NCBI GenBank assembly: GCA_005799545.1 | Contig: SYGM01000182.1 | Coordinates: forward strand, 1 to 60,840 | Length of the DNA stretch: 60,840 nt | Direction of reading: 5' to 3' | From: Planctomycetia bacterium | GTDB lineage: Bacteria > Planctomycetota > UBA1135 > GCA-002686595 | In this document: positions 1 through 43,387 of the stretch, one piece after another | How the letters are laid out: each line of letters starts with the position of its first letter | Numbering within the stretch: the first letter of the stretch is position 1 | Notes under the pieces: generated by a model | Told to the model about the DNA's origin: nothing | Database searches by the model: none | Seen by the model: the letters and a program-made list of their open reading frames with translations, nothing else | Position numbers and translations under genes: made by a program

Positions 1-391
1 AGTCCTGCGAGGTCGTGAGCGTCTTGGCGAGATCCGCCTTGAGCGCCGCCATGTCGAGCTTGGCGAATTCGGCCGCGTAGTCGAAGTCCGCACCCATCGG
101 ATTTCCCGCAGCCGGGTTCTGGCGCAGAATCGTGAGATCGAGTTGGTTGGGCCACCACTCGCGGTTGCTCATCGCGCTGGTCGCGCTGTCCTTGTAGCTC
201 GCTTCGGCGACGCCCGCCTCGTTCATCACGGGGCACTTGCCGGAGTCGGCCTGCGCGTCCGGGTTCTGGGTCGACTGCGTGGCCGCACAGCCGCTGACCA
301 CAGCGGCGAGCGCGAGCGCGCCGACGAAGGAGGAGGCGGAGAAAGCCCCGCGTTCCGCGGAGCACGATTGGGGAGAGGATTCAGTTTGCAT
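1..391 (-). CDS. katG: Catalase-peroxidase KatG, N-terminal part, with lipoprotein signal (runs off the window)
   Basis: The reverse strand encodes an N-terminal leader and then the start of the KatG domain: WWPNQLDL, then NPMGADFDYAAEFAKLD, which are typical of catalase-peroxidases. KatG removes hydrogen peroxide using haem. The catalytic residues lie outside the window. The leader has a hydrophobic stretch ending VVSGC, which reads as a lipobox, so the enzyme is probably exported and membrane-anchored. Most KatG proteins are cytoplasmic, with exported variants known. A second in-frame ATG lies at 407-409; neither start has a strong ribosome site. The gene starts about 30 bases after the fur-like gene on the same strand, the familiar furA-katG arrangement. 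The identification is firm; the export is inferred. Confidence 0.9.
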   Translation of the reverse strand, partial: MQTESSPQSCSAERGAFSASSFVGALALAAVVSGCAATQSTQNPDAQADSGKCPVMNEAGVAEASYKDSATSAMSNREWWPNQLDLTILRQNPAAGNPMGADFDYAAEFAKLDMAALKADLAKTLTTSQD

Positions 392-20800: not shown

Positions 20801-21279
20801 TGCTCGGCGAGCACGGCGGCGGCGCATTCCGCATGCTGCAGCTGGATGGCGGCGGGAAAAGCCGCATCCTGCCGAGCGAGATCATTCACACGGCGGATCT
20901 GTGCCTGGGCGGATTCAGCCCCGATGGCACGGTGTTCGTCACCGCTTCGCGCGATGGCGTGGTCTTCGTGCGGGAAACCAAGGGTGGACTGCCGCGCACC
21001 CAGTTCCAGGCCGCCGGCATCCCGACCGCGCTGGGGTTTGAATCGCCACAGGGATTTGAGAAGGCACAGGGGCTTGGGTCGGCACAGGGTTTTGGGAAGG
21101 CAGAGGGCACTGCCGGCGCGCGGGTGCTGGTGGGCACTGCCGAGGGCAATGTCCACGGCTTCCCGATCGACCCCCTGCCCGCGCTGCAGGGGCGGCTCCC
21201 ACGCCCGCTGGAGGCCTGGGAGATCGGCAATGAACAGCGGCTGGCCCTGCCCTTGAGGTACAATCCACGCGTGGACTGA
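17878..21279 (+). CDS. Membrane Ser/Thr protein kinase with C-terminal WD40-like propeller region
   Basis: 1133 residues, GTG start. Kinase domain about 76-375: GSGGQGSVYLAQ loop, Lys106 in VALKVL, HRDIKPGN (Asp231), DFG (249-251), GTPAYMSPE. One membrane helix lies at about 395-417, so the kinase faces the cytoplasm and the rest lies outside. Residues 430-1130 contain repeated beta-propeller-like blades (for example VRAFDPAQRRLLAEA, VRIFDCESGALVQQF, FSPDGTVFVTASRDGVVFV). The first 60 residues form a small helical domain as in other planctomycete kinases. It is divergent from an ECF sigma gene and probably regulates it. A short six-residue repeat interrupts the propeller near its end. Confidence 0.9.
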   Translation: MSSQPRSARRDDPTLAAVFDFVSAYWEEREAGRGHELGYWLARFPGHEQAIAREFLELETPADAAAATADQGQIGPYLILRELGSGGQGSVYLAQDTRIERTVALKVLSGFFGSVGEERRARLRREAEVIARLDHPGICAIHDAEIETDPPWLAMRHIEGATLAALLAAAKRTAVGGSASAGPAETESGLPRLIARWPARDVLDVHAVLACFEKAARALHAAHEAGVIHRDIKPGNLMISTQCEPVLLDFGLAREEREEEAAALTLEGEMLGTPAYMSPEQLQGGAALDRRTDIYSLGATLYETLTLHRVFEKSGRSELFRAIEREEPRDPREHNPALPAEVAAVLAVALAKEPARRYTSALEFAEDLRRIRVYEPIRARPPGPAMRLVLWTQRNPLLAATILVLAVALGFSLYTLASERAALRVALGRHLGSRANALVNEDPSAAVALGVQACELAPNYLTRAALLSALDACALERELRVPQARTSEDFALDGQGRWIAVALGGYEDGSTRLVLHALNGSAPGVELPGPHGAIQKLLWVEAHQTLLSVEQDGRVRAFDPAQRRLLAEAQLGGALRQWLVSRDGGTLLALTREGRLTTLKLPELANPRVLRERGIDAARLGLGTDSVWICSDGGAQLAELDLRAARELSVRTGPQAGVRSFEVTADALMLATADNRLLRLDLGSGELEPIALANNSLRIEELRLDPRSQRLLVLLARDERGAAFLLDPRTLARTELLPEDSRFALRGAFRGDGARVALACSDMSVRIFDCESGALVQQFRGRFRAQDLAYSTDGSRLYTRNVGGALMCWYASTRPDLLRFRVPGAIERIGWNGARGRFEAFTQDGLRHEFDLASDTPLLSELAPARKRNEQIWELPGGALRQLANHRVVFEPREESGGENGGGVAGKSFELDLSKPNPCSVREVALAPDGSEFVLVTNSLRVLRVRLPDGAVLEELRPFVARSAIYSPDSRHLLLLGEHGGGAFRMLQLDGGGKSRILPSEIIHTADLCLGGFSPDGTVFVTASRDGVVFVRETKGGLPRTQFQAAGIPTALGFESPQGFEKAQGLGSAQGFGKAEGTAGARVLVGTAEGNVHGFPIDPLPALQGRLPRPLEAWEIGNEQRLALPLRYNPRVD
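21034..21105 (+). repeat. 18-bp in-frame repeat inside the kinase propeller
   Basis: Four 18-base units (21034, 21052, 21070, 21088) encode GFESPQ, GFEKAQ, GLGSAQ, GFGKAE. They form a low-complexity insert between two propeller strands and keep the reading frame. Confidence 0.85.
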
Positions 21280-23208: not shown

Positions 23209-23301
23209 CAGATTTCCGGCAGTTTTCGTTCCACGAAGGCGGCTGTTGATCACGGAGGGATGAGCCGAGCCGGGATTTTCCCCGCCGCTCAACATCCCTC
23301 C

Positions 23302-25002
23302 ATGAAGATCCAAAACTCCCTTCGACTGATCCCCTTCCTCGGCCTCGCCGGCATGGCTCAGGCCCAGATCTCCTTCAGCGTCGACTACCTCGGCTCGACG
23401 GTTTCCCTGCCCTCGACTTGCCCGGGGTTGCCGATCACGGCCGGCGACATCCTCACGCCCGCCACCGGCGCACCGTGCCAACCTGCTTCGGCCGTCATCG
23501 GCGGTCTGCCGCCGCCTTCGATCCTGATCCCCGGCGGCCTGCCGGCACCGATGGGCTTGGGCATTCCCTCAGTCGCCGGCTGCACGGGCGTGCCCGGCGG
23601 CGCTCCCTGCCCGGCGGAGCTCGACGCGCTCTCCTACGGTCGCGACACGATCCAGAATTCGGCAGGCACCGGTCTGCAGGTCGCCAACATCTTCTTCTCG
23701 GTGGATGAGTTTGCCACTGGCATCGCCGGCGGCCCCTTCGCTCCCAATGTGTGGAGCGAAGGGGTGCTGACGGGCGTGAAGGACCACGCGGCCGATGTGT
23801 TCAGCAACAGCCTCGCGATCCCGTTCGTTCCGGCAGGTCCGGGCGCTCCGGCGGCAGCCGGGAACAAGGGCCGAATCGACGGAGACGGCCTGGCGAGCGT
23901 CTCGGGAGCGATCTACGCCGGACTGGGCCTGCACGAGCCGCGCCCGCCGATGGTGGGCCCGGGCCCGCGCATCGGTGACAACATCGATGGGCTGGACATC
24001 GGCCCGGTGCCGGTGACGACGGCGGGCACCACCGCCCCGGTGTTCTTCTCGCTGGACGGCAACTTCGCCGACCCGGCGCGCGGTATCAACAACCTCGGCA
24101 CCGCGCAGGCCAACGGTTTCCTGCCCGGTATGGTGCTGACGCAGGTCGCCGGTGGGCCGCCGGCGGTCTACGCCTGGCCGCAGCAACTCGGTCTGGACCT
24201 CGCGGGCCCGGGCACGGATGACCTCGATGCGCTGGCGCTGCAGGAAAACGCGATTCCCGGCTTCCAGCCGGCCAACACCGGCGTCGTTCCGGACCTGATC
24301 CTGTTCTCGGTGCGCCGCGGCTCGGCAGTGATCGGCATGCCTGACTCGCAGTTCGGCATGCTGATCTGCGAGGGCGACATCCTCACGGTGCCCGCGGCCG
24401 GTGGTGCCACTCCTGCAATCTATGTGGCGGCGGAGTGGCTGGGATTGGTCAGCAACCGGGGACTCGCTCCTGCGGGCTTGTTCGGCGATGAGCTCGATGC
24501 CCTCGATGTCGAGACGTCTCTGCCGCTCGTCGGCCAGCCCTACTGCTCGGGTGACGGATCGCTGCCCACACCCTGCCCCTGCGGCAACTTCGGCAACCCC
24601 GGCGCGGGCTGCAACAACTCGGCGGGCACCGGCGGCGCAGTGCTGACCGCCACCGGCTCGACGGTTCCGGACACGGTGGTGCTGACGAGCTCCGGCGAAC
24701 TGCCGACCTCGACCTCGATCTTCCTGCAGGGCACCAACCTGATTGCCAACGGAGTGACCTTCGGAGACGGTGTGCGCTGCATGGGCGGCCCCTTGCGCCG
24801 ACTCTATGTGAAGAATGCGGTGGCGGGCGTGGTCAGCGCGCCGATCGGCGCGGAACCCTCGATCACGACGCGCTCGGCGGCCCTTGGGGACATCCTGCTG
24901 CCCGGCACGACGCGCTACTACCAGGTGCAGTACCGCGATCCGGCCAACTTCTGCACGGCGGCACTGTTCAACGCGTCAAGTGGCTACGTGATCACCTGGT
25001 GA
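23302..25002 (+). CDS. Secreted FSVD-repeat protein with CPCGN C-terminal domain (copy 1)
   Basis: 566 residues from the ATG at 23302, which opens a signal peptide ending MAQAQ; the 14 codons before it are leader. FSVD-type strands recur (ISFSVDYLG, IFFSVDEFA, VFFSLDGNF, ILFSVRRGS). Shared landmarks are LDALSYGRD, GPRIGDNIDGLDIG, LGLDLAGPGTDDLDALALQEN and SVRRGSAVIGMPDS. Residues about 410-566 form the CPCGN...GAGCNNS domain, ending GYVITW. The next gene is a close paralogue, and the two share leader sequence too. I recognise no function; secretion and a structural or surface role are inferred. Confidence 0.78.
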   Translation: MKIQNSLRLIPFLGLAGMAQAQISFSVDYLGSTVSLPSTCPGLPITAGDILTPATGAPCQPASAVIGGLPPPSILIPGGLPAPMGLGIPSVAGCTGVPGGAPCPAELDALSYGRDTIQNSAGTGLQVANIFFSVDEFATGIAGGPFAPNVWSEGVLTGVKDHAADVFSNSLAIPFVPAGPGAPAAAGNKGRIDGDGLASVSGAIYAGLGLHEPRPPMVGPGPRIGDNIDGLDIGPVPVTTAGTTAPVFFSLDGNFADPARGINNLGTAQANGFLPGMVLTQVAGGPPAVYAWPQQLGLDLAGPGTDDLDALALQENAIPGFQPANTGVVPDLILFSVRRGSAVIGMPDSQFGMLICEGDILTVPAAGGATPAIYVAAEWLGLVSNRGLAPAGLFGDELDALDVETSLPLVGQPYCSGDGSLPTPCPCGNFGNPGAGCNNSAGTGGAVLTATGSTVPDTVVLTSSGELPTSTSIFLQGTNLIANGVTFGDGVRCMGGPLRRLYVKNAVAGVVSAPIGAEPSITTRSAALGDILLPGTTRYYQVQYRDPANFCTAALFNASSGYVITW

Positions 25003-25060: not shown

Positions 25061-25143
25061 GTTTTTTCGTTCCACGGCCGGGGGGCCTGAGTCACGGGGC
25101 TTGTGAGGACGGGATGTTCCCGCCTCAGAAAGCACCTCCCCCA

Positions 25144-26835
25144 ATGAAGATCCACACGACCTCCCTCCAGTTCCTCTCCGCGCTGTGCCTCGCCGGTGCC
25201 GCGCAAGCCCAGATCACCTTCTCCATCGACCGCCTCGGTCCGGTGATCGCCACGCCGTCCACCTGCCCCGGCGCTCCGATCACAGGCGCCGACATCCTCA
25301 CCCCCTCGAGCGGCCTGCCTTGCCAGGCTTCCTCGGCAGTGGTGGCCCCCCTGCCGGTGCCCTCGATCGTGAGTCCGGGCGGTCCGGGCGGTCTGGGCAT
25401 CGCCACGGCGGCCGGCTGCACCGGCGCTCCTCCGGGAAACAACTGCCCCTCCGAGGTCGATGCGCTGAGCTACGGTCTGGACCAGATCATGACCGCGACG
25501 GGCCTCACGCTGCCCGTGAGCTCGATCTTCTTCTCGGTCGATGAGTTTGCCCAAGGCATCCCCGGCAGTCCCTTCCCGCCCAATGTCTTCAGCGAGGGCT
25601 TTCTGACCGGTGTCAACGATGCGGCTGCGGATGTGTTCCGTAACACGATCCCGATGCCGCTCCTGCCGCTGGGCCCGGGCGCGCCGGCGACGGCAGGCAA
25701 CAAGGGCGTGATCGATGGCGACGCCAACCCGAGCGGTTCAGGTGCTGTCTACGCCGGTGTGGGTCTGCGCGAGCCGCGTCTGCCGATGTTTGGCCCCGGT
25801 CCGCGCACCGGTGACAACATCGATGCGTTGGACATCGGCAAGCTGCCGATCAACACGGCCGGGGCCATCGGCCCGGTGTACTTCTCCTTGGATGCCGCGT
25901 TCCCCGACGTCCTGCGCGGCATTCCCAACACCAACACGGCTCTCGCCAACGGCTTCCTGCCAGGGGCGGTGCTGGTGCAGAACGGCGGCGGAGCTCCGGT
26001 GGTCTATGCCATGCCCATGCAGCTGGGTCTGGATTTGGGGGGGCCGGCGACCGACGACCTCGACGCGCTGGCCCTTCAGGAAAACGGCCTGCCCGGCTTC
26101 CAGCCGATCAATGCCGGTGGCGTGTTCGGCGACCGCATCATCTTCTCCGTGCGCCGCGGCTCGGCCGTGATCGGCATGCCGGATTCGCTGTTCGGAATGC
26201 CGATCTGCGAAGGCGATCTGCTGACCGTCCCGACGGCTCCGGGTCTTCCGCCCTCGATGTTCATCGCAGCAGAGTGGCTGGGCCTCAACACCTTCCGCGT
26301 GACTCCGGGTGTGGTCAGCGATGAGCTCGACGCGCTCGACATCGAAGTCCCGATGGCGCCTCCGGGCCAGCCCTTCTGCTCCGGCGACGGCACGCTGCCG
26401 ACCCCCTGCCCCTGCGGCAACATCGGCAACCCCGGCGCGGGCTGCAACAACTCGGCGGGCACCGGCGGCGCAACTCTGACCGCGACCGGCTCCACCACGC
26501 CCGACACGGTCGTGCTGACGAGCTCCGGCGAGCTCGCAACCTCGACCTCGATCTTCCTGCAGGCTACCGGCGTCCTTCCCAACGGCGTGGTCTTCGGAGA
26601 CGGCGTGCGCTGCATCAACGGCGGACTGCGCCGCCTCTACGTGAAGAATGCGGTGGCGGGTGTGGTCAGCGCTCCGGTCGGTGCGGAACCCTCGATCACG
26701 GCGCGCTCGGCTGCGCTGGGTGATGTGCTGCTGCCGGGCATGACGCGCTACTACCAGGTGCAGTACCGCGATTCGGCCCCCTTCTGCACGGCCGCCAACT
26801 TCAATGCTTCGAGCGGCTTCGTGATCACCTGGTGA
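25144..26835 (+). CDS. Secreted FSVD-repeat protein with CPCGN C-terminal domain (copy 2)
   Basis: 563 residues from the ATG at 25144, with a signal peptide ending GAAQAQ. It closely matches the preceding gene along its whole length: LDALSYGLD, GPRTGDNIDALDIG, TDDLDALALQENGLPGFQP, SVRRGSAVIGMPDSLFG, and the C-terminal domain CPCGNIGNPGAGCNNS to GFVITW. The 80 bases before the two start codons are also related. This points to tandem duplication of gene plus leader after the 21424 gene had diverged. A strong hairpin follows the stop. The function is unknown. Confidence 0.78.
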   Translation: MKIHTTSLQFLSALCLAGAAQAQITFSIDRLGPVIATPSTCPGAPITGADILTPSSGLPCQASSAVVAPLPVPSIVSPGGPGGLGIATAAGCTGAPPGNNCPSEVDALSYGLDQIMTATGLTLPVSSIFFSVDEFAQGIPGSPFPPNVFSEGFLTGVNDAAADVFRNTIPMPLLPLGPGAPATAGNKGVIDGDANPSGSGAVYAGVGLREPRLPMFGPGPRTGDNIDALDIGKLPINTAGAIGPVYFSLDAAFPDVLRGIPNTNTALANGFLPGAVLVQNGGGAPVVYAMPMQLGLDLGGPATDDLDALALQENGLPGFQPINAGGVFGDRIIFSVRRGSAVIGMPDSLFGMPICEGDLLTVPTAPGLPPSMFIAAEWLGLNTFRVTPGVVSDELDALDIEVPMAPPGQPFCSGDGTLPTPCPCGNIGNPGAGCNNSAGTGGATLTATGSTTPDTVVLTSSGELATSTSIFLQATGVLPNGVVFGDGVRCINGGLRRLYVKNAVAGVVSAPVGAEPSITARSAALGDVLLPGMTRYYQVQYRDSAPFCTAANFNASSGFVITW

Positions 26836-28574: not shown

Positions 28575-30380
28575 TCAGATCTCGCCCAGCGTGCAGGTGC
28601 GACCCTTGTTCTCGCGCTTGAGCCACTCCATCAGGGGTGCGAAGTAGTTGAGCATCGCCTTCGCCGACAGATCCGAGCCTGTCTTCTCGCGCAGCAGCTG
28701 ACGCCAGTCCGCCGAAGCGCCGGGCGTCATGATCGACTTCAGGAACTCGCCGACTTCCTTGCGACCGTAGTAGTTCGTGTCGCGCGGATCCTCGTGCAGG
28801 ATGTTGCGCGCGATGTGGTCGTGCAGCTGGAACAGCAGCACGAAGGACAGCGCGTAGTCGTAGTAACCCGCCGGATCGTCGTTGATGTGGGTCTTGGTGG
28901 CGGCATCGCAGTACTCTTCGCCGCGCGCGGAAGGCGGAGCGATGCCCTGATAGCGGGCTGCGAGCTCCCACCAGCGCGCGTTCCAGCGCGAGGGATCGAG
29001 CTTGTCGTGGTAGAGCTCCTTCTCGAAGTGGTACATCGTGCCCGTCGACCATGGAATGAACACGCAGTAGTTCATCGCCTCCTTCAGCAGCAAGCGCATC
29101 GCATCGGGCTTGGCTCCGCCCGTGTCGAGCCCGACGCTCGCCACGAAGCGCGGCTGCATCGCCGCGAGACCCATCAGCGAGCCCATGGCCTCGTGATAGG
29201 CGCGGTTGGCGCCCTCGCGCAGCAGCGGCGGCACGGACGGGTTGGAGTAGCACATGTAGTAGTAGATATGCCCCAGCTCGTGATGCGTGGTCTCGTACCA
29301 CTCCTGATTGGGCTCAACGCTCATCAGCGAGCGCACATCCTTGTCGAGATCGATGTGCCAGGCGGAGGCGTGCGTGTTCTTCTTGTAGCCGGCGTCCTTC
29401 GCGACGGAATACAGCGAGGAGAGCTGATGGAAGCTCTGTGGCAGCGGATCGAAGCCCAACGAAACGTAGAAGCGCTCCGCCTGCGCGATCACCCACTCCG
29501 GCGGGTGCTTCGCCATGGCCGCATTGAGATCGAAGCCCTGCACTTCCACCAGCTCGGACCAGTCCTGCCCCCAGCGATTCGGCAGCCAGTGCGCCGGAAT
29601 CAGATCCGGAACCGGCTGCCCGAACTGCTTGGCGAGTTCATGCCGCGCATAGGTGTGCAGCTCGCGGAACAGCGGCCGCAGCTCGCGATTGATCTCGACG
29701 ATCTTCTCGGTGAGTTCCGGCGTCGTCATGCCGTACTCCGAGGCCATGTACGAGAAGTAGTCGGGATAGCCCAGCTGCTGCACCACATCGTTGCGCAAGC
29801 TCCGCAGATTGACGAGCCCCGGCTTGAGCGCCCGGCCGACATCCTTGGATGCTTCCCAGACGCGCAGCCGACGGTTGAGGTCGCGCTCAGACTTGAGGCA
29901 GCCGTCGATCTCGTTGGGCGTCAGCTCTTTTCCATCGAGCTCGAAGCGAAAACCGTAGAGCTGCTCGGTCTGCGCTGCTTCTGCGGCGATGCGGCGCTTG
30001 ACCAGTTCGGCGGCGGTCTGCGGACCCGAGCCCGCCTTGAACAGCACGGCCTCGAGCTGACGCACCTCCAGCGCGTCGAGCTGGTCGCGATGTGCGAGGA
30101 AGGCGCGCGCGGCCTCGATCACTTCCACCGATCCGGTGTACGCCGCGAGCGCCTCGTTGGCCGCGCGTGTGGCCTTGGAGTTGGTCTCGTCGCCCTCGAT
30201 GATGTGCGTCTGCGAACGCCACTCCGCCTCGGCCGAGGCTGTTGCCAGACGCTGGTAGTTCCGGTTGTAGCGCTCCAGCCACAGACGGGCATCGGCCGCC
30301 AACTGGCTCGATTGACTGGTGTTCTCCATCGCGCAGGAGCACAGGACGGCCAGAGGCAGGGCCAGCAGCAGGTATCGCAT
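28575..30380 (-). CDS. M2-family (angiotensin-converting-enzyme-like) peptidase lipoprotein
   Basis: 601 residues. The lipoprotein signal ends LCSC. The zinc motif HHELGH (His367, Glu368, His371) and the downstream ANRAYHEAMGSLM supply the M2 gluzincin site, and the length fits bacterial ACE-like dipeptidyl carboxypeptidases. MSVEPNQEWYETTHHELGH is close to the family consensus. It should release dipeptides from peptides outside the cytoplasmic membrane. It is divergent from the thioredoxin-fold gene with 37 bases between starts. Confidence 0.9.
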   Translation of the reverse strand: MRYLLLALPLAVLCSCAMENTSQSSQLAADARLWLERYNRNYQRLATASAEAEWRSQTHIIEGDETNSKATRAANEALAAYTGSVEVIEAARAFLAHRDQLDALEVRQLEAVLFKAGSGPQTAAELVKRRIAAEAAQTEQLYGFRFELDGKELTPNEIDGCLKSERDLNRRLRVWEASKDVGRALKPGLVNLRSLRNDVVQQLGYPDYFSYMASEYGMTTPELTEKIVEINRELRPLFRELHTYARHELAKQFGQPVPDLIPAHWLPNRWGQDWSELVEVQGFDLNAAMAKHPPEWVIAQAERFYVSLGFDPLPQSFHQLSSLYSVAKDAGYKKNTHASAWHIDLDKDVRSLMSVEPNQEWYETTHHELGHIYYYMCYSNPSVPPLLREGANRAYHEAMGSLMGLAAMQPRFVASVGLDTGGAKPDAMRLLLKEAMNYCVFIPWSTGTMYHFEKELYHDKLDPSRWNARWWELAARYQGIAPPSARGEEYCDAATKTHINDDPAGYYDYALSFVLLFQLHDHIARNILHEDPRDTNYYGRKEVGEFLKSIMTPGASADWRQLLREKTGSDLSAKAMLNYFAPLMEWLKRENKGRTCTLGEI

Positions 30381-34067: not shown

Positions 34068-35891
34068 GTGAACCTGAGCCGTACACAGGCGCTCATCGTG
34101 CTGGGTCTGCTGGCCCTCGCAGCGGCATGGCTGCGGGTTTCCCTGACACTGGCCGATCCGGGCTTTGACCCGGTGGAGGCGCGCGGCCTGCTGCGCAGCG
34201 ACCCGGCGCTCCTGTTCCACTTCGTGCAGAGCATCCTCGATGTCGGCGGCGTCCCGGCCGAGTTTGCCCGGCATGCCCGCATCGAGGCACCGCAGCCGAT
34301 GTCCGTGCCTCAGCTGTTTGCCTTGGGACCGGAGTTCGCAACCGCGGCCTTTCATGCACTCTTGCGCGCCACGGTGGCGCCGCACCTGCCGCTGCATGTC
34401 AGCTGCCTCTGGTTCAGCTCCCTGTGCGCCTCGTCCCTTGCTCTCGGCGCGGCACTCCTGGCGCGCGAGTTGGGCTTGTCGCGTGCTTTGGCCTTGCTGG
34501 CGGCCCTGCTGACGCTCTTGTTGCCGGCCAACCAGCGCACGCTGGGATTTCTGCTGGTGGGCGAGGACTACAGCTTTCCGCTGTGGCTGCTGCATCTGGG
34601 CCTGGCACTGCGCGCCGTGCGCACGCGCTCGAGCGTCTGGGCGCTGCTGGCGAGCTTGAGTCTGCTGGCCTCGCTCGCAACCTGGCATGCCGCCAGCTTC
34701 TTTCTGACGCTCGAAGTGGCCGCGGCATTCGCGCTGTATCTGCGCAGTGCAGGCAATCCGCTGCGCGAACGCTCCGGTCAGATGGCTCTGGGAGTCCTGC
34801 TGCTGGGAAGCCTTGCGATCCCGATGCTGCGCCACACGGCCTTCGTTTTCTCGGTGCCTGCGGCCCTGATGCTGGGAATGGCCGCAGGCAGGACGCGGAT
34901 GGCGGCCTGCGCCTGCGCAGGGCTGGTGCTCGGCGCCGGTCTGATTTGGGCCCACTTTTCGGGCGGCGGCAGCGGGGAATACAGTCACGTCTTCGCGCTG
35001 CTTGCGGCGAAGCTCGAACACGCACTGGTGCTGCCGGCCGATCCGCGCGAGCTGCCCTTCGAAGTGCGCATCATGTGGCAGGGTCCTTTCGCGAGCCTGG
35101 GACCTGCCACGCTGCTTGCTCTGCTGGGCGTCGGCTCGCTGGCGGCGCTGAGCAGCGCGCGCACGCTCGGGCGTTTTTTCAGCCAACCCGCCGCTTCGGA
35201 TCCGCGCACGGCGCTGGTCGCCGGCCTGTTCTGGCTGGGACTGCCGCTGGCCCTGATGATCGAGCGCGTGGTGGTTCTCCCGGGCGCTCTGGCCGGGGTG
35301 CTGCTCGTGCACGGCCTGCAGCGAAGAGGCGCCTGGCTCCTCGGTCTGGCAGCGCTCCAGTTGGCGCTCTGCGGCGCCCATTTCCGCGACTGGCGCAACC
35401 CGTGGTACCAGCCGGTGATCCGTCGCGATGAGTTGCGCGCCGCACTGGCTGCGGTCGAACGCCTGACTCCCAGCAGTGGCGTGGTCGCGACCGACTTCGT
35501 CAACGGCCCGGCCGTGCTGGCCCACACCGGCCGCGCCATCGTCCAGCAACCCAAGTGGGAAACGCGACGCAGTCGGGAGCGCATCGAGGAGTTCCTCAAG
35601 GCGTGGTTTGAGGGCGACCTCGTGAGCTTCCACCGGTTGCTGCGCGAGGGTTACGGTGCCGAGTACCTGCTGGTGGACCGCGCCACGCTGACGATGGGAA
35701 TGCGCTACGCCGCCGGGATTCCAGCGGGGGTGCCGCTTCGGCCGGACAGCCCCGCCGCATTGCTGGGGAGCTTTGACGGGCGCCCCACCCCGCCGGTGAC
35801 CGGGTTCGAAACGCTGTACGAGAGTTCTCCGCTGCTGCGCCAATCCAACGGCCAGCCCTCGGCGCTCTTCCGTCTGTACAAGCTTAAGTAA
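34068..35891 (+). CDS. GT-C-fold-like polytopic membrane protein
   Basis: 607 residues, GTG start at 34068; the upstream open frame is antisense to the isomerase gene. It has about 11-12 hydrophobic helices, with an acidic first loop (TLADPGFDPVEARG) of the kind seen in GT-C glycosyltransferases and oligosaccharyltransferases. A soluble C-terminal part of about 150 residues follows (SSGVVATDFVNGPAVLAHTG, EYLLVDRATL). The layout resembles STT3 or family-39-type sugar transferases using lipid-linked donors, but no decisive motif is visible, so the activity is tentative. Confidence 0.6.
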   Translation: MNLSRTQALIVLGLLALAAAWLRVSLTLADPGFDPVEARGLLRSDPALLFHFVQSILDVGGVPAEFARHARIEAPQPMSVPQLFALGPEFATAAFHALLRATVAPHLPLHVSCLWFSSLCASSLALGAALLARELGLSRALALLAALLTLLLPANQRTLGFLLVGEDYSFPLWLLHLGLALRAVRTRSSVWALLASLSLLASLATWHAASFFLTLEVAAAFALYLRSAGNPLRERSGQMALGVLLLGSLAIPMLRHTAFVFSVPAALMLGMAAGRTRMAACACAGLVLGAGLIWAHFSGGGSGEYSHVFALLAAKLEHALVLPADPRELPFEVRIMWQGPFASLGPATLLALLGVGSLAALSSARTLGRFFSQPAASDPRTALVAGLFWLGLPLALMIERVVVLPGALAGVLLVHGLQRRGAWLLGLAALQLALCGAHFRDWRNPWYQPVIRRDELRAALAAVERLTPSSGVVATDFVNGPAVLAHTGRAIVQQPKWETRRSRERIEEFLKAWFEGDLVSFHRLLREGYGAEYLLVDRATLTMGMRYAAGIPAGVPLRPDSPAALLGSFDGRPTPPVTGFETLYESSPLLRQSNGQPSALFRLYKLK

Positions 35892-35919
35892 CGGCCTTTA
35901 ATAGACTTAGCTACACAGA

Positions 35920-35959
35920 GGGAAATCGGTTCCCAACGAACCGACGGAAGCAATTTCCC
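35920..35959 (+). promoter_or_regulatory. Nested inverted repeat in the leader of the first array gene
   Basis: GGGAAAT pairs with ATTTCCC (outer, 7 bp) and CGGTTC with GAACCG (inner, 6 bp) in the 95-base AT-richer gap before 35987. A GGAG at suitable spacing precedes the GTG start. It may be a leader hairpin or an operator; no known riboswitch matches. Confidence 0.45.
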
Positions 35960-35986
35960 AAGGGTAAGGTTCCTTGGAGCCTATAC

Positions 35987-36979
35987 GTGCTGAACCGAAT
36001 CCCCATCCTGCCCTGCCTTCTGACGACTGCGTTGAGCGGTCTGCTCTCCCCGGTGCTGCTTGCCGGCACCAAGGAGGCCGGCAGCCTGCTGCTGTTCCCG
36101 GTCTTCGACAACACCCGTGGTCAGCAGACGCTGATCACGGTGACCAACAGCAACCCGGACCCGACGGCGGGCTCGGTTCGCCTCGAATACATCTACATCA
36201 ACCGGGCGGGCTGTCAGGAGTTCAACCGCAGCCGGACGCTGACGCCCAACGACACGCTCAGCGTGATCACCAAGGTCGACAATCCGAACATGGTGCAAGG
36301 CTATGTCTATGTGGTGGCCCGAAGCACCAGCACGGGCAAGGCCATCAAGTTCGATCACCTGATCGGCACCGGAGTGAACCTGGGCTTGAGCAACTTTGAG
36401 TTCGACCCCTTCGTCTTCCGCGCGGGTGCCGCACTTGCGGAGGGAGCCCCAACGGATCTGGAAAACGGGGGCGTCGGCGATGGCCTGCGCGATCTCGATG
36501 GCCTGGAGTACGAGGCCGCCCCGGCCGAATTGCTGATCCCGCGCTTCCTCGGTCAGGATTCCACGCTGGAGTCGGAGCTGATCCTGATCAACCTCACCGG
36601 CGGAGCGCAGTTCGATGCGCTAATCGACCTGCTGATCTACAACGACAACGAAGAGGTGTTCTCCGGCCAGTACAGCTTCCGGTGCTGGAAGCGCGTGCGC
36701 CTGCTCGACATCAGCGCTGCGTTCTCCAGTTCTTTCCTGCTCTCCACCAATCAGGCCCCCAATGAGATCAATGCGGGCGGCGGTCCTGCGGCGATCGAGA
36801 CCGGTTGGCTGCGCATCAACGGCAACATCGCCAACTCCACTCAGACCGTGCTGCCGGATCCCGCGATTCTCGCCGTTCGGATTGACGATGCTCTCGACAC
36901 GCCTCTGGCCGCATTGCCGTTCTCCAAGGGCCTGCAGGTCAATGGCAGCCTGCTCTCGCACTCTCTGACTGGTCAATAG
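35987..36979 (+). CDS. Secreted array protein 1 (IPRF.GQ / DNEEVFSGQ family)
   Basis: 330 residues, GTG start with GGAG upstream. The signal peptide ends near VLLAG. Landmarks shared with the next two genes are AGSLLLFPVF, EYIYINRAGCQEFNRSRTLTP, GLRDLDGLEYEAAP, LLIPRFLGQ, LLIYNDNEEVFSGQYSFRCW and IANST. It is mostly beta-rich with one conserved pair of cysteines. It lacks the C-terminal NN ending of the other two, stopping at SLTGQ. I do not recognise the family. A secreted surface or matrix protein is the best inference. Confidence 0.75.
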   Translation: MLNRIPILPCLLTTALSGLLSPVLLAGTKEAGSLLLFPVFDNTRGQQTLITVTNSNPDPTAGSVRLEYIYINRAGCQEFNRSRTLTPNDTLSVITKVDNPNMVQGYVYVVARSTSTGKAIKFDHLIGTGVNLGLSNFEFDPFVFRAGAALAEGAPTDLENGGVGDGLRDLDGLEYEAAPAELLIPRFLGQDSTLESELILINLTGGAQFDALIDLLIYNDNEEVFSGQYSFRCWKRVRLLDISAAFSSSFLLSTNQAPNEINAGGGPAAIETGWLRINGNIANSTQTVLPDPAILAVRIDDALDTPLAALPFSKGLQVNGSLLSHSLTGQ

Positions 36980-37088
36980 GCATCGGCAGGGCCAAGTCCC
37001 GTCGGTACAAGGGCTTAGCGCCGGCCGAGCCCCCCAAATTACGACACTGAAGCCGCATCAAATACGCCATTTTTCAGGAAGACGCATC

Positions 37089-37116
37089 TTGCGCGCCGGC
37101 CGCAGACCCCTACAAT
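37089..37116 (+). promoter_or_regulatory. Likely sigma-70-type promoter of array gene 2
   Basis: TTGCGC, 16 bases, TACAAT. It leaves a 5' leader of about 150 bases with GC-rich complementary stretches (CACCGCGGGGGCCCGG) before the ATG at 37274. Confidence 0.45.
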
Positions 37117-37273
37117 CGGCCCACGGCTCACCGCTTTTGGCCGCTCCGCATTCGCGTGGTCGGGGCTGCTCGAGGAGGTGGACCACTTCCAATCCCCCAC
37201 CGCGGGGGCCCGGAACCCCTAGGGCTAGCCACAGGGAACCGGCCACCCCCAGGATTCAACTCAGAAAGACATC

Positions 37274-38245
37274 ATGATCAAGTTCTCGACTCTCGCTCTG
37301 GCCGGCGCCGCCGTCCTGGGTCTCACCGCTGGCGCCTCCGCTGGCGTCCAATCCGCTGGTTCGCTGCTGGTGTTCCCTTACTTCGAGAGCGGCCGCAACG
37401 CCGCCTCGGGTGTGGACACCTACGTGACCGTCACGAACATCAACCTGAACCCCGACAACGGCACGGTCAAGGTTGAGTACGTGTACATCAACGGCAGCAC
37501 CTGCCTCGAGTTCAACCGCACGCGCACCCTCACCCCGGGTGACACGCTGACGGTGAACACGCGTCAGGACAACCCCAACAGCACCTCCGGCTACCTGTAC
37601 GTCTTCGCCAAGAACAAGACGACCGGCGCCGCGATGAGCTTCAACCACCTCATCGGTACCTCGCGCGTCACCAGCGGCTCGAGCGGCACCGACATGGAAA
37701 TCGCCCCGTTCGTTTTCAAGGCCAGCGGCGCTGAAGGTGCCAACACGGACACCGACAACGACGGCCTCCGCGACATGAACGGCACCGAGTACGAAGGTGC
37801 TCCGGACCAGATCTTCATCCCGCGCTTCGTGGGTCAAGGTGCTGCTGACTCCCAGCTCATCCTCATCGGCCTGACGGGCACCAAGTTCACCACCACGGTG
37901 GACCTGCTCATCTGGAACGACAACGAGGAAGTGTTCTCGGGTCAACACACTGTTGACTGCTGGCAGAAGACTTCGCTGAGCAGCATCAGCGGTGCCTTCA
38001 ACAACGACTTCCTGGCCTCGACCAACCACAACACCCTCGAGTCGCTCAACGGCGCCGAGACGGGCATGTTCTGGATCAACGGCCTGATCGCCAACTCGAC
38101 GGCCGCTTCGGTCGCCGGTCCGGCGGTGCTCGCCACCCTCGTTGAGAAGATCAACGGCGGTTCGGGCGCGGTTCTGCCCTACGCGGTTGGCACCCAGAAC
38201 AACGGCGACCTGGTCAACCAGAGCCTGTTCGCGGACAACAACTGA
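37274..38245 (+). CDS. Secreted array protein 2, probably highly expressed
   Basis: 323 residues. The signal peptide ends AGASAG. It shares with its neighbours AGSLLVFPYF, EYVYINGSTCLEFNRTRTLTP, the calcium-loop-like DTDNDGLRDMNGTEYEGAP, IFIPRFVGQ, LLIWNDNEEVFSGQ and IANST, and it ends DLVNQSLFADNN. Codon choice is markedly narrow (AAC, ACC, CTC, GGC), unlike the surrounding genes. It has its own promoter candidate and a textbook terminator. These point to strong expression, as for a major surface-layer or matrix protein. The family is unknown to me. Confidence 0.78.
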   Translation: MIKFSTLALAGAAVLGLTAGASAGVQSAGSLLVFPYFESGRNAASGVDTYVTVTNINLNPDNGTVKVEYVYINGSTCLEFNRTRTLTPGDTLTVNTRQDNPNSTSGYLYVFAKNKTTGAAMSFNHLIGTSRVTSGSSGTDMEIAPFVFKASGAEGANTDTDNDGLRDMNGTEYEGAPDQIFIPRFVGQGAADSQLILIGLTGTKFTTTVDLLIWNDNEEVFSGQHTVDCWQKTSLSSISGAFNNDFLASTNHNTLESLNGAETGMFWINGLIANSTAASVAGPAVLATLVEKINGGSGAVLPYAVGTQNNGDLVNQSLFADNN

Positions 38246-38272
38246 TTCCAACCGGACCTAGCGTCCGCTTCG

Positions 38273-38305
38273 GAGCCGCTCCCCTCGGGGGGCGGCTCTT
38301 TTTTT
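38273..38305 (+). terminator. Rho-independent terminator of array gene 2
   Basis: GAGCCGC / GCGGCTC stem with a C/G-rich loop, followed by a run of seven T, 27 bases after the stop codon. Confidence 0.93.
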
Positions 38306-38856
38306 GAAAATTCCCAAGAATGGCTTACGTCATCCGATTCCTAGGTCTCTTGGCGTAATTCTCCGGATCGAAGGCGGTGCGCGGGAGTAGCCGCAGTCAA
38401 CGCTTTCCAAGGACTCCTCAACCTTGTTGCCTCCCTGCAGACCTGACAAGCGACATCCTGCACAGGCGGATCCGGAAGGAGTATCCGGTCTCCCGATCGT
38501 GGATCGAACGCCGCGAGCGGAGCTCTGGCCGCACAGTCGCCACGATGCAACTTGCTGAATTCGTGAGGATTTCGCGATCGACTGCGCATGTTCCGAGCCC
38601 AGCGAACCTACCCACGTTGCGTGGTCAATCTAGAAAGCCTGATTGTCCTTTCGCGCCCCTCCCCGCTGCGAGCGAACTCCTACCCGACAGGAGCACGCAA
38701 AGTTCCATGTGAGTGTCGCACGGCTTGTCTGAGTCGGAGCGGTCTTGTCAGCGAGCCGAGGTCCGCTAACGTGTGGCGAGTTCGCGCAGTTTCTCGCAGG
38801 GTTTTTTCGAGCCTCGCCGCTGCGTCGGACGCATCCAACCACCTCAGATTCTCATC
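38306..38856 (+). other. 551-base gap without a convincing gene, holding a promoter candidate
   Basis: Short open frames here on both strands have no recognisable motifs and atypical composition. A promoter-like pair, TTGTCA (38745-38750), 16 bases, TAACGT (38767-38772), lies about 85 bases before array gene 3. The rest could hold a small RNA, but I see no clear terminator or structure to claim one. Confidence 0.4.
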
Positions 38857-39924
38857 ATGAACCTCAAGCATGTCATTCTCATGGGTGCGACGCTCGCCTT
38901 CGCCGGCAGCGCTCTTGCTCAGGACGCATCCCAAAACAACAAGCGCGGCAACAGCCTCTACGTCTTCCCCCTGATCCAGAAGACCCCCGGCAGCCTCAGC
39001 CTGATCTCGATCGCCAACCTCGACGAAGGCGGCACGCAGGGCACGGCCTCGGTGGACGCTCACTTCGTCTTCCGCAGTGGCCAGACCTGCTTGGAGACCC
39101 TGAACTTCAGCAAGCCGCTGACCCCGCTGGACACGCTGACACTCAGCGTCAACGGTCAGGGTGCTCTCCCCAACGGCTTCAACGGCTTCGCCTATGTCTA
39201 CGCGGAGGCCACCGGCGCCAGCGCCACGGCCATCAAGTACGACAACCTGGCCGCAGCCCAGTATGTGTTCGACGGCGTCAACGCTTCGGCCTACGAGATC
39301 GACGCTTACGGATTCAAGGCGGGCTCCGCGCTGGCGAACCTCGCCAACACGGACACCGACAACGACGGCGTCCGTGACCTCAACGGCACCGAGTATGAGG
39401 CTGTCCCCAACGTTCAGATCTACCCGCGCTTCTTTGGTCAGGCCACCCAGGGCGCTCCCGGCTTCAGCTCGACGCTGACGCTGCTGTCGCTCGTCGGCAG
39501 TCAGTTCGACGTCGTGGTCGACTTCCTGATCATCAACGACAACGAGAATGCCTTCTCTGGTCAGGCCGGCTTCCGCTGCCACAAGACCTTCTCTCTGCTG
39601 GAGATCTCGGGTGCCACCGCCAACCAGTGGCTCGCCGACTCCAGCGGTGACAACGACAGCGAGTTCATCGTCTGGCCGCGGACCACCGCTCAGGTCGAGA
39701 CAGGTCTGCTGCGCATCGTCGGCGCGACGGCCAACAGCACCGCCGCGACGCAGGATAACCCTGCACTGCTGAGCCTGCTGGTCAACCGCCGCCAACCCGG
39801 CGGAAACCCGCCCGGATTCGGCGGTGAGGGCTCGGGCGAGACGACCGCGACCCTGCCCTACGGCAAGGGCGTCAACAACAAGGGCAAGCTCGTCAACCTG
39901 AGCCTGTTCCCCAACAACAACTGA
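38857..39924 (+). CDS. Secreted array protein 3
   Basis: 355 residues from the ATG at 38857; the signal peptide ends SALAQ. Conserved landmarks are GNSLYVFPLI, GQTCLETLNFSKPLTPLDTLTL, DTDNDGVRDLNGTEYEAVP, IYPRFFGQ, FLIINDNENAFSGQAGFRC and GATANST. A Pro/Gly-rich insert (RRQPGGNPPGFGGEGSGE) lies near the end, then LVNLSLFPNNN. The same C-terminal pattern closes gene 2 and may be a sorting or assembly tag. It is more distant from genes 1 and 2 than they are from each other. The function is unknown. Confidence 0.76.
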   Translation: MNLKHVILMGATLAFAGSALAQDASQNNKRGNSLYVFPLIQKTPGSLSLISIANLDEGGTQGTASVDAHFVFRSGQTCLETLNFSKPLTPLDTLTLSVNGQGALPNGFNGFAYVYAEATGASATAIKYDNLAAAQYVFDGVNASAYEIDAYGFKAGSALANLANTDTDNDGVRDLNGTEYEAVPNVQIYPRFFGQATQGAPGFSSTLTLLSLVGSQFDVVVDFLIINDNENAFSGQAGFRCHKTFSLLEISGATANQWLADSSGDNDSEFIVWPRTTAQVETGLLRIVGATANSTAATQDNPALLSLLVNRRQPGGNPPGFGGEGSGETTATLPYGKGVNNKGKLVNLSLFPNNN

Positions 39925-39954
39925 TGTCCTGACGACGGAAGTGGTTCCAAGCCG

Positions 39955-39989
39955 GCGGGGAGTCCGAGATCGGACTCCCCGCTTTCGTT
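39955..39989 (+). terminator. Terminator hairpin after array gene 3
   Basis: Perfect 13-bp stem (GCGGGGAGTCCGA / TCGGACTCCCCGC) with a 2-base gap, then TTTCGTT. It ends 3 bases before the GTG start of the sulfatase-like gene. Confidence 0.85.
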
Positions 39990-39992
39990 CCG

Positions 39993-41726
39993 GTGCGTAT
40001 CATCGGCGCGGTGAAACACACGTTGTTCCCTGTGCTGGCCGGACTACTGATGACAGCGCTGGCTGCCTGCGGCCGGCAGCCCAAGCGGCCGGACCTGATC
40101 CTGATCACGCTCGACACGACGCGCTCGGACGCTCTGGGCTGCTACGGGCGAAGCGGAGATCCGACGCCCAACCTCGATGCGCTCGCGCGCGAAGGCGTGC
40201 GCTACACGCAGGCGCGCAGCGTGGCCCCGCTGACACTGCCCTCGCATGCTTCGATGCTGACGGGCCTGTATCCCCCGCGCCACACCGTGCGCGACAACGG
40301 GCAGGCTGTCCTCCCGCAGAGCGCACGCACAGCCGCAGAAGTCCTGGAGGACGCGGGCTACGAGACAGCGGCCTTCGTCGCCGCCGCGGTTCTCGATGAG
40401 CCCTGGGGCATCGCGCAGGGCTTTCAGTATTTCGACGCGCCGCAGGATACGGGCGATGGCAGCGCGCATGTCGGCGAACGCAGCGGCCGCGAGGTGATCG
40501 ACCGCGTACTCGCGTGGCTGCCGACGCGCGATGCACAGCGCCCGCTGTTCCTGTGGGTGCATCTGTTTGATCCGCATGCACCTTACGAGCCGCCGGAGGA
40601 TGCGCTCGCGCGCGCCGGCGGCAATGCCTATCTGGGCGAGGTCGTTGAGACCGATCGCCAGGTGGGTCGCCTGCTCGCGGCACTGCGCGCTTCCGCGTCC
40701 TTCGATGCATCGGCTGTGCTGGTTGTCGCCGACCACGGCGAGGCACTGGGCCAGCACGGCGAGCCCACGCACTCCGCGCTGTGCTACGAGCCGACCATTC
40801 ACGTGCCGCTGATCCTGCGTCTGCCCTCCGGCGCACAGGCCGGCCGCGTGGAAGACAAGCTCGTCAGCGTCGCGGACATCTTTCCCACGCTGCTGGAGCT
40901 GGCCGGAGAGAGCGTGCCCGAGCGCATCGACGGCCGCAGCCTCCGGGCGCCGGAGTCGGCGCGTGCCGTTTACTTCGAGTCATACTCCGGTTGGCTCAAT
41001 CACGGCTGGAGCCCGCTGATCGGTGTGGCGCAGGGCCGCGAGAAATATCTGTGGAGTGAAACGCACGAGTTGTACGACCTGAGCCGCGATCCGCGCGAGA
41101 AGCTGGATCTCGGACCGGCGCAGCCCTCACGCTGCACGCAGTTGGCGGAGCTGCTGATGCAGCAGATCAGCCAGCCCGCTCTGCGTCCGGACGCTTCCGC
41201 AGGCATCGATGCCGCTCAGCGCGAACGCATTCGCGCGCTGGGTTACGCCGGGGCCGGCGAAGAAGGTGCCGCGCTTCCCGCACCGTTCACGCCGACGGGC
41301 CTGCCGCGCCCCAAGGACTCCATGTCCGAACTGCGCGCCTACTACGAGGCACTGCTGGCCGACGCGCGCGGAGAACGCGAGCAGGCGATCCGCACCCTGC
41401 AGGACATCGTCGCCGCCAACCCGGCGCACTATGCCGCCGCGGACTACCTCGGCGCTGCATTGCTGAGCGCAGGTCGGGCTGCGGATGCCGAGCGAATGCT
41501 GCTGGCTCTGGCGCGTGCGGGACGCGCGCGCACCACGACGGCAGCCAATCTCGCACGCGCCTGCGAAGCCCTGGGCCGACTCGATGAGGCGCGCGGACAC
41601 TGGAAGCAGTGCGCAGAACTCGCGCCGCTGTCGCGCGAACCCTGGCAACAATTGCTGCGACTTTCCGAGAGTCTGGGCGATGCCAAAGGCGCGCAGGCTG
41701 CGCGCACGGCGCTGGAAAAGCTCTAG
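39993..41726 (+). CDS. Sulfatase-fold lipoprotein with C-terminal TPR repeats
   Basis: 577 residues. A lipoprotein signal ends LAAC (GTG start at 39993, or GTG at 40011). The alkaline-phosphatase/sulfatase fold is clear: LILITLDTTRSDALGCYG, LPSHASMLTG, HLFDPHAPYEPP, VVADHGEALGQHG. The position normally holding the formylglycine Cys or Ser is Thr81 (T-L-P-S-H instead of C-x-P-x-R), so it is probably not activated as a classical sulfatase. Residues about 440-575 are TPR-like. It may be a phosphodiesterase or phosphotransferase acting outside the membrane. Its 3' end overlaps the convergent radical SAM gene by 4 bases. Confidence 0.84.
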   Translation: MRIIGAVKHTLFPVLAGLLMTALAACGRQPKRPDLILITLDTTRSDALGCYGRSGDPTPNLDALAREGVRYTQARSVAPLTLPSHASMLTGLYPPRHTVRDNGQAVLPQSARTAAEVLEDAGYETAAFVAAAVLDEPWGIAQGFQYFDAPQDTGDGSAHVGERSGREVIDRVLAWLPTRDAQRPLFLWVHLFDPHAPYEPPEDALARAGGNAYLGEVVETDRQVGRLLAALRASASFDASAVLVVADHGEALGQHGEPTHSALCYEPTIHVPLILRLPSGAQAGRVEDKLVSVADIFPTLLELAGESVPERIDGRSLRAPESARAVYFESYSGWLNHGWSPLIGVAQGREKYLWSETHELYDLSRDPREKLDLGPAQPSRCTQLAELLMQQISQPALRPDASAGIDAAQRERIRALGYAGAGEEGAALPAPFTPTGLPRPKDSMSELRAYYEALLADARGEREQAIRTLQDIVAANPAHYAAADYLGAALLSAGRAADAERMLLALARAGRARTTTAANLARACEALGRLDEARGHWKQCAELAPLSREPWQQLLRLSESLGDAKGAQAARTALEKL

Positions 41727-43387
41727 CTCTCTTCCTTGCCCGCCGTGGTGCCCGTCATCGCCTCGCGGCTCTGCGAGGCCTTGGTGGCGGAAGTTCCGGT
41801 GCTGTGGCCGGGATCGACCCACGAGCGCGAGAGCTCCTTGGTGCCGAACAGCTTCTTCGTCACGCGGTTGTAGACATCAAAGGCCTTGGCTTCGACGCGC
41901 GCCGGCGGGAATCCGCCCAGCAGCTCGCCGCGCTCCAGACGCGCCTTGGCACGCTTCTCCCACCAGCCCTTCTTGCCGCGCGCGAGCCCGTAGTTGAGCG
42001 TCGCGTAGTGGTGGTACATCTTGCGCGCGAGCATCACATCATCGGGGATGCGGCCTTCCCAGGTCTCTTCGAGGTGGTACTGGCCGAGCTTGCCGAAGTC
42101 TTCGAGCCTCGTCGGAGGCACGAAGCCCTGCTCGATGGCCTGATCCCACATCGCCGTGCCCGGAATCGGGCGATACGGCCAGACGGTGGCACGCGAGCGC
42201 GGGCAGGCGACATGCACGCGGCGGCACTGATCGATCGTGGCGAGCATCGATTCGCGCGGCTCGCCGGGGTAGCCGATGATGTAGGTCAGGTTGGCGCAGA
42301 TACCGCGCTTGTCGAGTTCGATCGCGCCCAGAACGTTGTCGTCGTCCTTGATGGGCTTGCCGATCTTCTTCATCATCTCGTTCGTGCCCGCCTCGGCGCC
42401 GATTTCGGCGACATACATGCCGGAGGCGATCATCAGATCGAGCGTGTCGGGCTTGTAGTGCAGGATGGAATGCGTCTCGATGAACGCGTTCCACCAGAAC
42501 TTGATGTTGCGATCCAGCAGTCCCTGCGCGAACTCGCGCGTGCGCTTCTCCATCACGCCGAAGTTGGCATCGTGGAAACGAACCACATCGAAGTTCCAGC
42601 GCTCCTTGAGCTCGGCAAGATCATCGAGCATCCGATCCGCCGGCATGGCCTTCCAGCGCCGATCCGTCACGAACGGCGAACAGCAGAAGGTGCAGGGCTC
42701 GGGGCAGCCGTAGCTGGAGAAGTACGTGATGCCGAAGTACGGCTTGCGATCGCCGATCGCTTCCGGCGTGGGCATACGCAGCACGTCGCGGTGGCTCTGT
42801 GCGCGCATCTGGTGCACGCGGTAGGGCTCGATGTCGATCAGGTGCCAAGGCAGCCGGGTGATCTTGTCCCAGCCCGCGACACCGCGCTTCTCGGTCTTGA
42901 TGACCTGACCATCACGCAGCAGCGCGAGGCCTTGAACCTGCTCCAGCGGCGTGCCGGCCTCGACGGCCTGCACCAGATCGCGGAAGGTCAGCTCGCCCTG
43001 GCCGAGCACCACGGCATCGTAGGGAGCCTGAGTCAGCTGCAGGTCCGGGCGCACGCTGGCGAACCAGCCGCCGATGAACATCGGCAGCTTGGGGTACCGC
43101 GCGCGCACCTTGCGCGAGCACATCAGGCCGTCGAACACCATGTACCCGAGGATGCCGGTGGTGGCGTAGAGCAGCGCGTCCTCGCAGGCCTCGACAACTT
43201 TGCGGTGCGCCTCCTCGGCGTCCATGATGCTCGCGTCGATGATCACGACCTCGTAGCCGTCCTGAATCGGCCAAGCCGAGATGGTCAGCATCTCCAGCGG
43301 CAGCAGGTCCTTGCTGGAGGGCAGGCCGAGGCTCTCGTCCACCTGCTGAGGCTGGTACAGAACGATCTTCTTCTTGCGACCGGTCAT
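41723..43387 (-). CDS. Cobalamin-binding-type radical SAM enzyme
   Basis: 554 residues. Residues about 1-155 look like a B12-binding Rossmann domain of the BchE/HpnJ type (IDGYEVV-like IQDGYEVVIIDASI, FIGGWFASVRPD, DAVVLGQGELTFRDLV). The radical SAM core starts near 215 with the cluster motif GCPEPCTFC (C-x3-C-x2-C), then AEIGAEAGTNEMMKKIGK and IIGYPGEPRESM. Such enzymes catalyse methylation or ring chemistry on lipids, pigments or peptides. The substrate here is unknown. The C-terminal 100 residues are basic, then Ser/Thr-rich. Confidence 0.85.
   Translation of the reverse strand: MTGRKKKIVLYQPQQVDESLGLPSSKDLLPLEMLTISAWPIQDGYEVVIIDASIMDAEEAHRKVVEACEDALLYATTGILGYMVFDGLMCSRKVRARYPKLPMFIGGWFASVRPDLQLTQAPYDAVVLGQGELTFRDLVQAVEAGTPLEQVQGLALLRDGQVIKTEKRGVAGWDKITRLPWHLIDIEPYRVHQMRAQSHRDVLRMPTPEAIGDRKPYFGITYFSSYGCPEPCTFCCSPFVTDRRWKAMPADRMLDDLAELKERWNFDVVRFHDANFGVMEKRTREFAQGLLDRNIKFWWNAFIETHSILHYKPDTLDLMIASGMYVAEIGAEAGTNEMMKKIGKPIKDDDNVLGAIELDKRGICANLTYIIGYPGEPRESMLATIDQCRRVHVACPRSRATVWPYRPIPGTAMWDQAIEQGFVPPTRLEDFGKLGQYHLEETWEGRIPDDVMLARKMYHHYATLNYGLARGKKGWWEKRAKARLERGELLGGFPPARVEAKAFDVYNRVTKKLFGTKELSRSWVDPGHSTGTSATKASQSREAMTGTTAGKEES

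Follow-up and report, generated by a model that had tools for sequence, protein, structure and literature searches.

The stretch of DNA analysed here, referred to as the window, was the entire 60,840-base contig SYGM01000182.1 of a Planctomycetia bacterium (assembly GCA_005799545.1), whose source genome is 3.4 Mb in size and 77% complete. The analysis concerned an array of three adjacent genes on the forward strand, to which the coordinates below refer unless stated otherwise, and the protein family behind them. Gene 1 (35987..36979, GTG start, 330 residues), gene 2 (37274..38245, ATG start, 323 residues) and gene 3 (38857..39924, ATG start, 355 residues) were each read as a stand-alone form consisting of a signal peptide and a predicted double domain of the ASRAH type. 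The signal peptides were recognised by eye at the N-terminus of all three proteins, and that of gene 2 probably covers residues 1-23 (37274..37342). The longest open reading frame (ORF) of gene 3 in the ORF list extends from 38773 to 39924; the ATG at 38857 is more likely to be the start than 38773, because the signal peptide begins there.

The gene array and its local signals

When gene 2 was searched against its own genome, gene 1 was recovered with 52% identity (E 1.6e-81) and gene 3 with 44% identity (E 2.0e-47), both far beyond chance. The three genes are therefore true paralogues, 44-52% identical, as the original prediction had proposed from a set of shared motifs. DNE-x-x-FSGQ and a conserved pair of cysteines, C77 and C229 in gene 2 numbering, were indeed present in all three genes. 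The motifs IPRF-x-GQ and IANST, also claimed for all three, did not extend to gene 3, which reads YPRF and TANST at these sites, and the loop motif DTDNDG-x-RD-x-NGTEYE was exact in genes 2 and 3 only, as gene 1 carries a four-residue insertion there. The own genome holds 13 family copies, three in the window, five on contig C21, two on C6 and one each on C196, C38 and C2. Two weak matches on contig C132 (E 2.8 and 3.0) were set aside as chance matches in repeat proteins.

The gaps within the array are approximately 300 and 610 bases, and gene 2 is followed at 38272..38299 by the terminator that had been pointed out before, a hairpin whose stem of 12 pairs, one of them read as G-T, is accompanied by a T run and which is intrinsic-terminator-like by consensus match only. 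Because of these gaps and this hairpin, the genes of the array are suggested to lie on separate transcripts. The promoter scan of 35800-40100 detected no forward-strand sigma-70-type site and one site on the minus strand, so that the promoter candidate and the 150-base leader attributed to gene 2 found no support. Scanning the window for Rfam families and tRNAs gave no match.

Codon usage was assessed by the codon adaptation index (CAI), with 14 ribosomal protein genes, named from sequence and order on contig C29, as the reference. The comparison covered 84 ORFs of at least 150 codons, collected with a crude caller from the window and six stretches of the own genome. Gene 2 had a CAI of 0.796 (rank 4 of 84) and an effective number of codons of 31.2, in agreement with the narrow codon choice noticed originally. 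The family copy on C2 ranked third (0.803), gene 3 eighth (0.751) and gene 1 only 38th (0.629), an average value, while the median was 0.615 and the ribosomal genes themselves ranged from 0.67 to 0.80. This ribosomal-like codon bias supports, but does not prove, high expression of genes 2 and 3. For the earlier suggestion that gene 2 encodes a major surface protein, the bias and the strong terminator-like site are favourable, although indirect, indications. A radical SAM / B12-binding protein encoded on the minus strand at 41723-43387 was also unusually biased in its codons, ranking 7 of 84.

A predicted double ASRAH fold

The AlphaFold2 model of gene 2, built from a 104-member alignment of the mature unit, reached a predicted local distance difference test score (pLDDT) of 95.0 and a predicted template modelling score of 0.92, and its strands fell into two similar sets. 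VIA-align, which compared only candidates from Foldseek and so did not cover folds outside that list, matched the first beta-sandwich (mature residues 4-126, 37352..37720) to Thermotoga TM1070 (PDB entry 1nc7) with Z 12.8 and a root-mean-square deviation (rmsd) of 2.6 over 110 residues within positions 4..128 of the model, and to the Anabaena sensory rhodopsin transducer (ASRT) with Z 8.5, the next unrelated row having 6.1. The second beta-sandwich (mature residues 150-290, 37790..38212), modelled alone with pLDDT 93.8, gave 1nc7 as the top Foldseek match (E 6.6e-4, probability 1.00), and transducer chains came next. VIA-align again placed 1nc7 first (Z 11.1 over 104 residues), ahead of ASRT (8.1) and a carbohydrate-binding module (5.6). 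The arrestins, vicilins and viral capsids among the Foldseek rows of the whole model were set aside for TM-scores of about 0.2 and rmsd values above 13. As each half best matches TM1070 and the Anabaena transducer, with the eight-stranded beta-sandwich of TM1070 topology in both predicted models, gene 2 is predicted with high confidence to consist of two successive beta-sandwiches of the ASRAH fold. No family had been known for these proteins originally, but their predicted fold is a known one.

The model also bears on the C-terminal ending. LVN-x-SLF-x-x-NN was seen in genes 2 and 3, as described originally, but only in these two of the 13 own-genome copies, so that it is not a feature of the family and a role as a sorting tag was ruled out. 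What the C-termini do keep is NG[DS]L[LV], in 12 of the 13 copies. The last ten-residue block of gene 2 had a pLDDT of 90, and the C-terminus is accordingly predicted to be folded rather than a loose tail.

Conservation was counted over the 104 aligned members with the residue numbers of gene 2. Ser30, Cys77 (codon 37502..37504), Gly106, Tyr173 and Ser222 were invariant, whereas NDNE at 215-218 was kept in 102-103, Cys229 (codon 37958..37960) in 102, Glu256 in 100 and Glu262 in 102 members. The two cysteines may form a disulfide. Between the halves lies a loop, DTDNDGLRDMNGTEYE (37748..37795), with aspartates conserved in 96, 76 (Asn in 19 more), 80 (Asn in 17 more) and, for the RD aspartate, 94 members, and with Glu172 in 100. 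The spacing is that of EF-hand-like calcium sites, and the interdomain loop probably binds calcium.

The ASRAH superfamily was named by De Souza, Iyer and Aravind in 2009, who proposed sugar binding; in that paper (PMC2739507), ASRAH domains often occur as dyads or tetrads in secreted proteins, the dyad arrangement being reported for secreted actinobacterial forms, and an Asn ending strand 2 is described as a near-absolute hallmark. This Asn was found in 101 of the 104 first halves. In the second half, the candidate position towards the end of strand 2 was Asn in only 55 of 104, and the hallmark was not clear there.

Several observations weigh against the assignment. The Trp of strand 1 in ASRAH domains was not among the five commonest residues of any strand-1 column, this strand reading P-G-S-L-L-[VLI]-[FY]-P in the family. 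The His/Cys ligand-cleft pair of the ASRT branch was not conserved in the 104 members: the position of the Cys (Asn minus 3) was occupied by Thr in 56, Ser in 32 and Cys in 13, and that of the His (Asn minus 7) most commonly by Phe, Leu, Val, Ala or Thr. Direct profile-profile comparison with ASRAH by hhalign was not significant (E 0.099 and 0.53). When 12 bridging domains were added, taken from giant proteins secreted by other planctomycetes, the first half reached E 0.0069 with a score of 20.1, compared to a maximum of 17.2 in 100 shuffles, and the second half E 0.33. The two halves compared with each other by profile were likewise not significantly similar (E 0.18), though their best fold match is the same. 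PF07100, the Pfam ASRT family, had no match in the own genome.

Membership of the ASRAH superfamily is thus likely by predicted fold and weakly supported by sequence, and the family is not a member of PF07100. Pfam matched none of the 104 aligned members at E 0.01, and Pfam, NCBIfam and PHROGs gave no real match for the three window proteins, which upholds the earlier description of a secreted family without a name. An adenosylhomocysteinase line in the NCBIfam scan was noise (13.1 bits against a cut-off of 485), PDB sequence searches returned noise only, and no description of the family was found in the literature, sequence-level naming in print being beyond the reach of that search. The array proteins are predicted to be extracellular variants of a known fold, in a family absent from Pfam.

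Architecture, spread and neighbours of the family

The window and the fetched loci provided 148 distinct copies, of which 136 have the normal order, five are permuted and seven are cut by contig ends (partial and unclassified). A stop codon could be seen for 135 of the normal copies, and in 132 of these the protein extends no more than 16 residues past the unit. Approximately three quarters of the normal copies (101) are single-unit forms, consisting of a signal peptide and the dyad, and 35 are long forms. For the tree, L065, L147 and L089 were moved by hand from single-unit to long on account of long ORFs and a Cys before the domain, and L079 from long to single-unit on account of its signal peptide. 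Eight long forms were scanned for domains; Big_9 repeats were found in three, TSP3 repeats, FG-GAP_2 and a Vgb/NHL propeller (with a Vgb match below the Vgb cut-off) in one each, and no known domain in two. A rough test of the most hydrophobic stretch before the unit revealed no lipobox in the 35 long forms, eight of which are cut N-terminally.

On the tree of 136 units, the single or long state changes at least nine times, with five changes forced by well-supported branches, indicating that fusion or fission recurred. All three array genes belong to a single clade (support 99), which comprises 28 single-unit forms. A simple recent triplication of the array was rejected, as gene 2 clusters with the C6 pair of its own genome (support 98) and genes 1 and 3 are placed elsewhere in the clade.

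Five circularly permuted copies were identified in three genomes, namely L071, L087 (the same as L144, three genes) and L088 (the same as L143). In these copies the unit starts with strand D of the first sandwich and reaches the former C-terminus, from which a short linker leads into strands A-C of that sandwich; this order requires that the natural ends of the unit be close. The copy at L071:5335-7335 is a natural permutant of the double ASRAH unit, as are L143 and L144, and one permuted copy sits behind a region read as VWA-like with TSP3-like repeats.

Within the same taxonomic family, the profile search was positive for 18 of 81 genomes and for 16 of 42 genera; the working profile excluded seven of the 41 extracted proteins (L016, L028, L031, L037, L038, L039 and L042), which were cut, over-extended or contained a stop. 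Up to 20 matches, counting fragments, were detected in one related genome by single-protein search. In a spread across the phylum, 16 of 392 genomes were positive, falling in ten family codes, one of these (G378) with partial matches only. A narrow motif-pattern scan of one genome per species, covering 84,980 species, yielded 75 loci, nearly all titled Planctomycetota; the Myxococcota title of one locus (L147) may be a matter of binning or naming. The family is almost confined to Planctomycetota. Viral contigs gave four pattern matches with no true relative among them, which is weak evidence of absence with so narrow a pattern.

Neighbouring families were assigned from scans of some members only. 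The neighbour survey found a small lipoprotein of about 180 residues near family copies, as six genes in five loci. This lipoprotein (alignment A6) was found in 8 of the 81 genomes, all within the 18 that hold the family (hypergeometric chance of this 8/8 co-occurrence 1.4e-6, kinship ignored), and nine of its ten copies immediately follow a family gene in the same orientation, whereas one does not. It had no NCBIfam match above noise and no Pfam match in the two members scanned; from its appearance it may be NTF2-like. The copy at L048:9424-9960 and its A6 relatives, almost always located just downstream of a single-unit gene, share invariant W and Y residues. FG-GAP lipoprotein-like genes occurred near family copies in nine loci, and secreted proteins of the propeller type beside long forms as nine genes in six loci, three of them on contig C21. 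The propeller-like proteins of L044 (9114-10718, 12795-14534 and 3-1382) have weak PD40 or WD40-like matches, and their genes alternate with long family forms on C21 on the opposite strand.

Elsewhere in the window, 21424-23208, 23260-25002 and 25114-26835 encode three adjacent secreted-looking proteins of 573-594 residues with no Pfam match. Two of them end in YRD..FC.A..FN.SSG...W, and a looser form of this motif ends other secreted proteins of the own genome and its relatives (L045, L049 and L052); these endings may represent another C-terminal module held in common. A serine/threonine kinase fused to WD40-like repeats (1133 residues) is located at 17878-21279, and a homologue of the peptidase M2 (angiotensin-converting enzyme) family at 28575-30380 on the minus strand (Pfam E 3.5e-99).

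Possible roles at the cell surface

We tentatively propose, with somewhat less than even confidence, that the unit is an extracellular, probably glycan-binding module that coats the cell surface or retains proteins there. Each of the three array proteins would be exported by a Sec-type signal peptide and would fold into one unit of two successive ASRAH-type beta-sandwiches joined by the calcium loop. Since the ASRAH fold has been argued to bind sugars (PMC2739507), the ligand would most likely be an envelope or matrix carbohydrate that occupies the clefts characteristic of this fold. Single-unit proteins such as genes 1-3 would coat the cell surface or matrix, and the C-terminal unit of large Ig-like, TSP3, FG-GAP or propeller proteins would hold its cargo at the same surface, these long forms showing no other anchor. 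In part of the family, the downstream small lipoprotein would probably tether or assemble the single-unit form. Direct observation covers the architectures, the C-terminal place of the unit, its pairing with the lipoprotein gene and the expansion of the family; sugar binding, surface retention and the lipoprotein role are weaker claims. Two points count against the proposal, in that a shared fold alone shows no function and that the small lipoprotein is not beside the window array, its sole own-genome copy being on contig C2.

The number of copies per genome (13 here and up to 20 in relatives), the codon bias of gene 2 and of the copy on C2, among the strongest in the ORFs sampled, the tetrameric state of TM1070 (PMC2739507) and the occurrence of permuted copies would also suit a structural building block, whose single units self-assemble into an S-layer-like coat or fibre that long proteins join through their C-terminal copy, with no sugar involved. 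Unlike a single lattice protein, however, the copies vary greatly, with identity to gene 2 falling to 27% in alignment A3, and we consider such a coat rather unlikely. The module might instead form the outer tip of Ig or propeller stalks and grip particles, cells or polysaccharide. Stalk-like architectures with a C-terminal module, including the permuted copy behind the VWA-like/TSP3-like region, are in line with such an adhesive head, as are the cysteines of the long forms: one lies just before the unit in 35 of 35, and an extra one in the C-terminal motif LPF-x-x-C was found in 29 of the 35 long forms but in none of the 101 single-unit forms. A clamp between the linker and the C-terminal strand is a natural reading of this pattern, and it could hold the module under load. 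The extra Cys was nevertheless not significant when kinship was allowed for (two independent pairs for, none against and three undecided, p 0.5). As three quarters of the copies have no stalk and the N-termini of the long forms showed no other anchor, the adhesive head appears unlikely.

The strictly conserved polar cluster of NDNE, Ser and Glu could belong to an ordinary secreted enzyme or a soluble periplasmic solute-binding protein; with no match to an enzyme family, and with non-enzymatic proteins as the best fold matches, this explanation is highly improbable. A more elaborate version of the glycan-binding module proposed above, which we regard as doubtful, is an undescribed surface-display system of uncultured Planctomycetota in which the calcium-braced double ASRAH module serves as an interchangeable C-terminal dock, as a coat when alone, as a fusion on giant adhesins and propellers, and with the lipoprotein beside the single-unit form as its dedicated receptor. 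In such a system, circular permutation would be tolerated since the two ends of the module meet.

Large proteins secreted by bacteria can carry C-terminal modules for retention or sorting, such as type IX CTD, SLH and PEP-CTERM. The unit resembles these modules as a C-terminal module common to otherwise unrelated secreted proteins, but it is much larger, has a predicted double ASRAH fold and mostly makes up a whole protein by itself. With ASRT, TM1070 (PF07100) and other ASRAH domains it shares the best structural match of both halves, the strand-2 Asn of the first half and the dyad (PMC2739507); it differs from ASRT and TM1070 in its length of about 300 residues, the calcium loop between the halves, the C-terminal place on giant proteins and the circular permutants, and in lacking the strand-1 Trp, the ligand-motif His and any Pfam match. 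In other Planctomycetota, giant proteins that look secreted (L205-L208, family code f10; open frames of 1831-2527 residues) also carry tandem ASRAH domains, extracellular in appearance, close to the C-terminus. Those proteins, however, match PF07100 itself, have at least three domains with no calcium loop or NDNE motif seen, and match the window family by profile at noise level only. The Ruminococcus flavefaciens carbohydrate-binding modules 5fu2 and 5aot, the next matches of the second half, have Z values (5.1-5.6) in the range of common beta-sandwich resemblance.

The array is of moderate interest, and the family behind it is more interesting than the array itself. Most surface proteins of uncultured Planctomycetota lack annotation, and this analysis could assign no route of anchoring or display to them. 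A module ending many of the largest secreted proteins would place sets of "hypothetical" proteins at the cell surface, and a multi-copy module with a known fold would supply a concrete ligand hypothesis. The fold, named after a rhodopsin partner, would moreover gain a large extracellular family in which circular permutants occur naturally.

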